Part shown: piece by piece, positions 609-2,410 of the stretch
How positions within the stretch are numbered: the first letter of the stretch is position 1
Layout: the number at the start of each line of letters is the position of its first letter
Assembly: GCA_902576125.1 (NCBI GenBank)
Contig: CACGUF010000007.1
Span: forward strand, 1-53,619
Source: an uncultured Alphaproteobacteria bacterium
Lineage (GTDB): Bacteria; Pseudomonadota; Alphaproteobacteria; HIMB59; GCA-002718135
Direction of reading: 5' to 3'
Length of the DNA: 53,619 nt
Position numbers and translations under genes: made by a program
The notes under the pieces: generated by a model
What the model saw: the letters and a program-made list of their open reading frames with translations, nothing else
Told to the model about the DNA's origin: nothing
Databases searched by the model: none

Positions 609-654
609 GAAGGTGGAACTTTAGGGTGTTAATCTAACAACACCCTCCACCTTC
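609..654 (+). other. Strong inverted repeat after znuA
   Basis: An 8-bp outer stem (609-616 with 647-654) and an 8-bp inner stem (623-630 with 639-646) are both perfect. They are separated by a 6-nt bulge on the left arm (617-622) and closed by an 8-nt loop. The structure starts 15 nt after the znuA stop codon. No T tract follows on either strand, so it is not a canonical intrinsic terminator; it could protect the znuA mRNA 3' end. The right part also encodes the end of the cysteine-rich peptide on the minus strand. Confidence 0.6.
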
Positions 655-717
655 ACAAGTACAACAGCAGCTGCAGCTACAACCACATTTAGGCGGGTTA
701 GGATTTTCATTTTTCAT
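634..717 (-). CDS. Cysteine-rich micropeptide (27 aa), possible metal-binding peptide
   Basis: An ATG at 717 opens a 27-codon frame ending in TAG at 634-636. The peptide begins MKNENPNPPK and then continues CGCSCSCCCTCEGGGCC, giving nine cysteines among the last 17 residues, in CxC and CCC patterns like those of metallothioneins. It lies convergent to znuA, which suggests a zinc-related role, but this is inference from position and composition. I see no good ribosome binding site upstream (AT-rich sequence ending in aataatgct), and no other ATG, GTG or TTG extends the frame. It has no recognised family. Cysteine codons mix TGT and TGC, so it is not a simple DNA repeat. Expression is unproven. 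Confidence 0.5.
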   Translation of the reverse strand: MKNENPNPPKCGCSCSCCCTCEGGGCC

Positions 718-862: not shown

Positions 863-2410
863 ATGCAGTCACTCTTTAGGTCCTTTTTTACTGTTAGTTT
901 TTATACTCTCCTTAGTAGGATTTTAGGCTTTGTTCGTGACATATTAATTGCACGTTTTCTTGGATCGACCGTAACAGCAGATGCGTTCTTTGTAGCTTTT
1001 CGTATTCCTAATTTCTTTCGACGTGTATTGGCAGAAGGTGCGTATAGCGCTGCACTAGTCCCTGTTTTCTCAGGCATTGTGATTGATTCTAAAGATGATC
1101 ATGAAGCAGCTGATTTTGTGGAGAACACCATGTCATTATTACTCGTTGTTACGGTGGGCTTAACTTTCATTTTCTTTTTTGGCATGCCCTATATTATACA
1201 AATACTAGCACCAGGTTTTCCTGTAAATAGTGAAGCTTTTGATTTAGCTGTCTATTTTGGGAAAATTATATTTCCGTATTTAATTTTTATTTCCTTAGCT
1301 GCACACTTTACTTCAATCTTAAATGTGCATGAACGATTTGCTGCAGGTGCTTTTGCTCCAGCTATTTTAAATATCAGTTTTATTCTCTCTCTTTATATTA
1401 TTACACCATATGTAAGTTCTGCTGGTCACGCTCTGTCGATTGGTGTTTTAATAGGTGGAATTGGACAGTTTTTATTTTTGTACCGATCCACTTTATCTTT
1501 TTATAAACCTAAATTAAAATTTCCAGAATTGAATGAAAAGTTACGAAAGTTTTTTAGATTATTTATTCCAGGGGTTATTGGGTCTGGTGTCATTCAATTA
1601 AATATTATTATCGGAACAATCATTGCCTCTTTCCTTCCTATCGGAGCAATAAGTCATTTGTATTATGCAGATCGTTTGAATCAATTACCTTTGGCAATAT
1701 TTGGTATTGCCCTTGGTGTAGTTTTATTGCCGGGTTTATCAAAAGCTATTAAGTCAGATAATAATGAGATGACAAAGAAATTACAAAACAGATCTTTAGA
1801 ATTCGCTTTATTAATATCTATCCCATCCGCTATTGGTTTATATATTTTATCCTTACCTATTGTTCATATCTTATTTGAGCGGGGCGTCTTTACTAAAGAA
1901 GACACTCTTTATACATCGAATGTCCTTGGATATTTTGCTCTTGGTCTTCCAGCATATGTATTGATTAAGGTTTTGATTGTTTGCTTTTTTGCCAGAGAAG
2001 ATACTAAAACTCCCTTGTATATTTCAATCGTCAGTGTGATTACCAATATTGTTTTATCCCTTTTATTAATTAGCACAATGAGAGAGATGGGTATAGCCTT
2101 GGCAACAGCCATTAGTGCTTGGGTAAACGCTCTTTTACTTTTTATTGTACTGATCGCTAGGAGAAGCTTAGATTTAGATGGTCATTTTTTAACCAATATA
2201 CTCAAATTACTCCTGTCTTTAATTATACTTGTTTTTATTATACGGTATTTAGAAATTTTCTTTTTTGCTCAATTATATTCAGCAGATATTCTAAATAATA
2301 TATTCTATTTGGTGCTTACTATTATTATCACTGCAGCAATTTATGGGATAATAATATTTATATTAAAAATCATAACAATTACTGATATTAAAAACTATTT
2401 GAAAAAATAA
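863..2410 (+). CDS. murJ: Lipid II flippase MurJ (MviN)
   Basis: Integral inner-membrane protein of the MOP superfamily that flips the peptidoglycan precursor lipid II. Its 515 residues match the family length, with about 14 hydrophobic segments. The N-terminus has the family pattern [19 protein letters not shown], followed by [23 protein letters not shown], both hallmarks of MurJ. It sits one base before trpS, the usual murJ-trpS pairing in alphaproteobacteria, and the two are probably co-transcribed. Arginine codons are often CGT or CGA here, unlike genes after about 3.4 kb where AGA dominates. The ATG at 863 has no clear ribosome binding site but gives the expected N-terminus. Confidence 0.96.

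Follow-up and report, generated by a model that had tools for sequence, protein, structure and literature searches.

The fungal family-8 metallothioneins, represented by the Cu-thioneins of Neurospora crassa and Agaricus bisporus, are 26-residue peptides in which seven cysteines hold metal through CxC thiolates, and their published pattern is X2-CXC-X5-CXC-X3-CXC-X2-C-X3 (PMC4755600). In bacteria, SmtA, BmtA and PflQ2MT (PF02069) are small Cys-rich binders of Zn(II), whilst a Cys-rich mycobacterial copper metallothionein carries a motif that is unseen in other bacterial metallothioneins (PMC10612145). Regulation ties one such protein to zinc uptake: in marine Synechococcus, the same Zur that represses znuABC activates the zinc-banking metallothionein BmtA (PMC9337993). 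The metallothionein of Pseudomonas fluorescens is described as dispensable for zinc homeostasis and as an aid to long-term survival (PMC7387436), a case that warns against presuming a zinc role. For the HIMB59/AEGEAN-169 clade, an 'iron/zinc chelator' gene has been reported as distinctive (PMC10308909).

The window analysed here, which is the whole stretch of 53,619 nucleotides, carries on its minus strand at positions 634-717 a gene for a micropeptide, MKNENPNPPKCGCSCSCCCTCEGGGCC, which translates into 27 residues before the stop; nine of the final 17 are cysteines. Metallothioneins are marked by a cysteine content of at least about 20-30 % and by aromatic residues that are absent or rare. 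The micropeptide is 33 % cysteine, has CxC, CCC and CC motifs within its 27 residues and in all 107 complete copies is free of F, W, Y and H (one copy with a GTG start being read from the GTG); it is therefore short, Cys-rich and built on CxC/CC, as a broad definition of metallothioneins describes.

Unlike fungal family 8, the micropeptide is bacterial and its alignment does not follow the family pattern; its nine cysteines are arranged as CxCxCxCCCxC-x(3-4)-CC after a Cys-free N-terminus of 9-10 residues. SmtA, BmtA and PflQ2MT are about twice as long (the PF02069 profile has 51 positions) and often contain His, and SmtA has a zinc-finger fold; the micropeptide gave no match to PF02069 at E<=10, and none of the 162 genomes of the order matched this profile at E<=0.001. 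The mycobacterial copper metallothionein, which we take to be MymT, is about 53 residues long, comes from a different lineage and is likened to the micropeptide by description. Searches of the micropeptide against Pfam, NCBIfam and PDB chain sequences likewise yielded no match at E<=10. Judged by titles and the beginnings of abstracts, literature searches brought up no description of such a peptide, and no paper was found that combined HIMB59 and metallothionein. By its anatomy the predicted peptide is metallothionein-like, and it lies outside every tested family. If it binds metal, it would be roughly half as long as the established profile for bacterial metallothioneins, and it has no match among the curated families searched.

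Sequence and conservation of the micropeptide gene

The first-pass annotation had pointed to a 27-codon minus-strand frame with nine cysteines beside znuA, and translation together with the gene coordinates confirmed this. A chance open frame was ruled out by resampling and by conservation. When the window was resampled 40 times with a first-order Markov model, no more than four to six cysteines fell within any 17 stop-free residues, versus the nine observed, and conservation is the stronger proof that 634-717 on the minus strand is a real gene. That annotation had also held that a frame or cysteines not conserved in relatives, or frames broken in close strains, would speak against the proposal; the comparison was run and favours a gene, with all nine cysteines kept in 107 of 110 copies. 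The three exceptions were a missense change of Cys11 to Phe (locus L256), a changed tail caused by a frame change (L181) and a one-base frameshift (L257). The window's genus (g1) and the second genus that carries the micropeptide (g2) share the frame CGCxCxCCCxC-x(3-4)-CC but diverge in the N-terminal stretch and in the loop. The g2 peptide reads MDNNKPKPD-CGCSCSCCCTC-GDG-CCQ, with a different N-terminus and a loop shorter by one residue.

Purifying selection on the micropeptide is strong. The pN/pS ratio was 0.066 in g1 (38 distinct alleles) and 0.064 in g2 (26 alleles), calculated from 71 of 74 g1 copies and all 36 g2 copies after leaving out L181 and L257 for their frame changes and L256 for its Cys11 substitution; a simpler count in the true frame gave 0.072 and 0.066, respectively. 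With the same three copies excluded and alleles counted, TGT/TGC swaps were present in 15 of the 18 cysteine columns and no other residue occurred in any of them. Other frames read from the same g1 DNA had stops in 3 to 38 of the 38 alleles. In g2 one other frame was stop-free but had a pN/pS of 5.3, and the rest had stops in 6 to 25 of the 26 alleles. One antisense frame also displayed a low ratio (0.19 in both genera), with stops in 29/38 and 22/26 alleles. Within g1, majority identity was 0.88-0.99 across the gene, compared to 0.51-0.81 in the 100 nt upstream and 0.61-0.77 in the 80 nt past the last codon.

The absence of an evident ribosome binding site had originally been counted against the gene. 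None is evident in the window, where no AGG resembling a Shine-Dalgarno sequence is present 5' of the micropeptide ATG, but as a weakness this carries little weight. Of the 44 ORFs in the window that reach 100 aa, only eight had AGGT, AGGA, GGAG or GAGG at the Shine-Dalgarno place (nine of 44 for any AGG), suggesting that the lineage seldom uses one, and a Shine-Dalgarno-like 4-mer preceded the micropeptide in 59 of 73 g1 copies and 2 of 36 g2 copies. Annotation easily overlooks very short genes such as this one, which strong selection preserves in bacteria with small genomes.

Distribution and genomic neighbourhood

Of 61 genomes searched first, 47 had the micropeptide, and the window's own was one of them. 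A profile built from eight copies extended this to 110 of the 162 genomes of the order, most of which are incomplete, and all 110 loci were fetched. Carriers belonged to two of seven genera and span two families of the order, whilst the other five genera were unmatched in the same profile search of 162 genomes. In a search of the class, 62 of 385 genomes matched at E<=1, only four of them below 0.003; all four belong to the same order and one is the window's own. The search of the phylum matched one of 398 genomes, again the window's own. A degenerate pattern scan of genome contigs returned at least 119 stretches, all of which were translated, and at least 16 of these hold the micropeptide. 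Among the matches listed, nine of 16 micropeptide stretches had titles, all of them 'uncultured Alphaproteobacteria', and the other 103 pattern stretches were without the N- or C-terminus of the micropeptide. Nine stretches matched in IMG/VR and the micropeptide was present in none of them. The carriers are related, uncultured alphaproteobacteria and are probably marine.

The gene is dispensable, being unmatched in the other five genera and in some members of both carrier genera. The micropeptide was present in 67 of the 70 ZnuB-bearing g1 genomes; of the remaining three, G066 has an intact znuA-murJ interval from which the micropeptide is missing, and in G029 and G082 the locus is cut off by the end of a contig. 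Among 42 ZnuB-bearing g2 genomes, 31 carried it and 11 were unmatched. It was also absent from G037, a g2 genome assembled as a single contig of 1,410,127 bases with 99 % completeness. Diverged versions were sought in nine micropeptide-less genomes and rejected: the 10 CxCCCxC matches, from seven genomes, were each inside an ORF of 133-582 codons, in another frame or strand and with unrelated flanking residues.

In the window, the micropeptide gene converges with znuA across a 40-nt gap. The znuA gene occupies positions 3-593 on the plus strand; its 5' part is missing, the contig starting inside the His-rich loop, the frame is open from base 3 to the stop, and positions 138-593 match PF01297 with an E value of 1e-36. 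On the other side, a divergent promoter region (718-862), in which a matrix scan found no Zur box, separates the micropeptide gene from murJ (863-2410, plus strand; PF03023); murJ takes this divergent position in the window's clade, and pirin in most relatives. As a side observation, the window contig starts inside the znuA His-rich repeat (1-100), and znuB of the same genome is found close to where another contig ends (G000:C5 near 92061, L298); the assembly of this genome probably broke at the repeat and so divided its zinc locus. ORFs assigned to ZnuA in loci L178-L188, L195 and L196 ranged from 339 to 530 aa, a spread that probably reflects changes in the length of a His-Asp repeat.

All 74 fetched g1 copies converge with the final gene of a Zur-type zinc operon, the identity of that gene varying. 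In the 73 scored copies it was an 84-aa protein (32), znuA (22) or DUF1636 (19), and the same arrangement was judged by eye in the 74th, L256. The neighbour on the other side was pirin in 59 and murJ in 14 of the 73, with the zinc block constant either way, and znuA was present on the fetched DNA of 68 of the 73. The operon runs znuA, CobW/COG0523 (PF02492), WD40, the 84-aa protein and DUF1636; divergent from it are znuC, znuB and the gene of a Fur-family regulator. The 84-aa protein (L180-L188), which is located between WD40 and the micropeptide or DUF1636, had no Pfam match.

A palindromic Zur-type box, named as such by its context, was present between znuA and znuC where inspected, and a scan of 122 loci with a strict pattern recovered it in 61. 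No such box was found in the 200 nt before 109 micropeptide copies: the best matrix score was 6.9 and the median 0.6, on a scale where the source boxes score 25-31 and the 95th percentile of the background is 6.7. Taking a box in a gene's own promoter as the mark of the Zur regulon, the micropeptide gene falls outside it. Any pairing with znu would thus be by position, unlike the arrangement in Synechococcus.

The surroundings in g2 were different. We found znuA on the fetched DNA around none of the 36 copies, one fetched stretch had a match to a znuC-like ABC ATPase, and the 31 genomes that have both micropeptide and ZnuB carry them, without exception, on different contigs. The recurrent neighbours were instead a divergent SAM-methyltransferase-like gene (27/36) and a proteasome-type protease (28/36). 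The protease was likewise absent from 11 of 12 micropeptide-less g2 genomes checked (L189-L197 region), whilst G140, also of g2, has the protease and lacks the micropeptide. The linkage to the zinc operon in g1 may simply have been inherited among the members of a single genus.

Candidate function and cargo

The micropeptide probably serves in the cytosol as a thiolate sink or buffer of metallothionein type and would constitute a new, unusually short sequence family. It is hydrophilic and no signal sequence is evident by eye; what the data show is the gene, its frame and location, its conserved cysteines and the absence of matches to two exporter families, and its translation level, metal binding, cargo and physiological role are inferred. 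The nine cysteines would wrap one small metal-thiolate cluster. Nine thiolates correspond to an M3S9 cluster of three divalent metals or to a cluster of about six Cu(I) ions (Cu6S9). The natural variants around the fixed cysteine frame could then indicate where substitutions are compatible with a minimal metal cluster.

We searched 61 of the order's 162 genomes for two exporter families. Neither the heavy-metal P-type ATPase (TIGR01525) nor the CDF exporter (PF01545) gave a match at E<=1e-5 in any of the 61, whereas all 14 control genomes matched in each search, 13 of them over the cut-off for TIGR01525 and 14 for PF01545. The peptide may hold excess Zn(II) and/or Cu(I) within cells where neither P1B-type metal ATPase nor CDF exporter was found, and a thiolate sink is a sensible role because such a cell is short of these efflux pumps. 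If it does bind metal, it would help to explain how these bacteria, with no match to two common exporter families, cope with surplus zinc or copper. The exporter gap does not compel possession of the micropeptide, since 14 of the same 61 exporter-less genomes, G037 among them, were also without a micropeptide match.

Zinc is plausibly the leading cargo in g1, where the tie to the zinc operon suggests it as the main one, with Cu(I) a serious alternative. The importer would be made when zinc is scarce, and the micropeptide would be useful when zinc is plentiful. The initial suggestion of a zinc buffer stood in part: a metal-binding buffer fits and every g1 copy adjoins the zinc operon, but the zinc-specific element was only partly borne out, given that g2 copies were without znuA, that the gene has no Zur box and that the Cys-Gly/Ser-Cys spacing, being without His, resembles the short fungal Cu-thioneins at least as closely. 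The sensor and chaperone roles offered alongside it found no evidence. A more elaborate version, which we consider improbable, envisages a 27-residue metallothionein with a single nine-thiolate cluster as the zinc bank of streamlined ocean bacteria without the common efflux pumps. The tail-to-tail Zur operon would make importer and bank mutually exclusive, antisense read-through from the derepressed operon silencing the micropeptide at scarce zinc, and the micropeptide gene would accordingly need no Zur box of its own. Should either form of zinc storage apply, the locus would place uptake and storage together for direct testing.

Alternative explanations

The alternative that survives best overlaps the metallothionein-like reading as a sub-case of it: the micropeptide could be a Cu(I)-thionein rather than a zinc buffer, with the zinc neighbourhood a passenger. 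Gly, Ser or Thr separate the cysteines in complete copies, with neither His nor Lys between them, the fungal Cu-thioneins are of similar build at 26 residues and seven cysteines (PMC4755600), g2 copies had no znuA on fetched DNA, and the heavy-metal P-type ATPase was unmatched in 61 genomes. Set against these points, the zinc operon adjoins 74 of 74 g1 copies and no copper gene was recognised among the annotated neighbours of any copy. We regard this reading as possible, though on the unlikely side.

A general thiol or redox buffer, or a persulfide or sulfur store without a specific metal, would also accommodate a peptide that is one-third cysteine and dispensable in relatives, and marine BmtA has been credited with a possible added redox-buffering role (PMC9337993). 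A mere thiol pool would have no need of the exact cysteine spacing that is constant across two families, and the location at a zinc locus also counts against it; we find this explanation doubtful.

A very short, hydrophilic peptide with a Cys-dense C-terminus after a Cys-free N-terminal stretch, divergent from a SAM-methyltransferase-like gene in 27 of 36 g2 copies, might alternatively be a RiPP precursor whose cysteines are cross-linked or made into a chelator. This is most unlikely, as the immediate neighbours in g1 are zinc-operon genes, pirin or murJ, an N-terminus of 9-10 residues is short for a leader, and the two kinds of maturation enzyme that were sought were not recovered: no MbnB/TglH-type enzyme scored over the cut-off in any of the 162 genomes, where a single sub-threshold match contained two stops, and no YcaO was found in the 61 genomes searched for it.

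The locus displays a strong hairpin in the window, spanning the last micropeptide codons and the convergent intergenic stretch (609-654, minus strand; -25.9 kcal/mol, z -4.0). Alleles with Gly at position 25 had a median fold energy of -17.0 (n=21, weakest -5.2), compared to -5.1 for those with Asp (n=15); the strong hairpin is therefore confined to part of g1 and does not explain the conservation of the gene. That the element is no protein gene at all, and instead an RNA structure, terminator, antisense element or Cys-codon leader peptide, is contradicted by the pN/pS values and codon pattern, by Asp-25 alleles that keep the micropeptide without the hairpin, by Rfam, whose gathering thresholds nothing in the window reached, and, for a leader peptide, by the strand of the next recognised gene, which is the opposite one in all 109 scored copies and leaves nothing recognised downstream to control, so that we hold it to be almost certainly wrong. 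The hairpin is an overlay on the micropeptide gene, perhaps acting as a terminator between the converging genes. In the sister genus g5, a separate TTCCACCTT...AAGGTGGAA hairpin was observed near the zinc genes (L290, L291 and L297).
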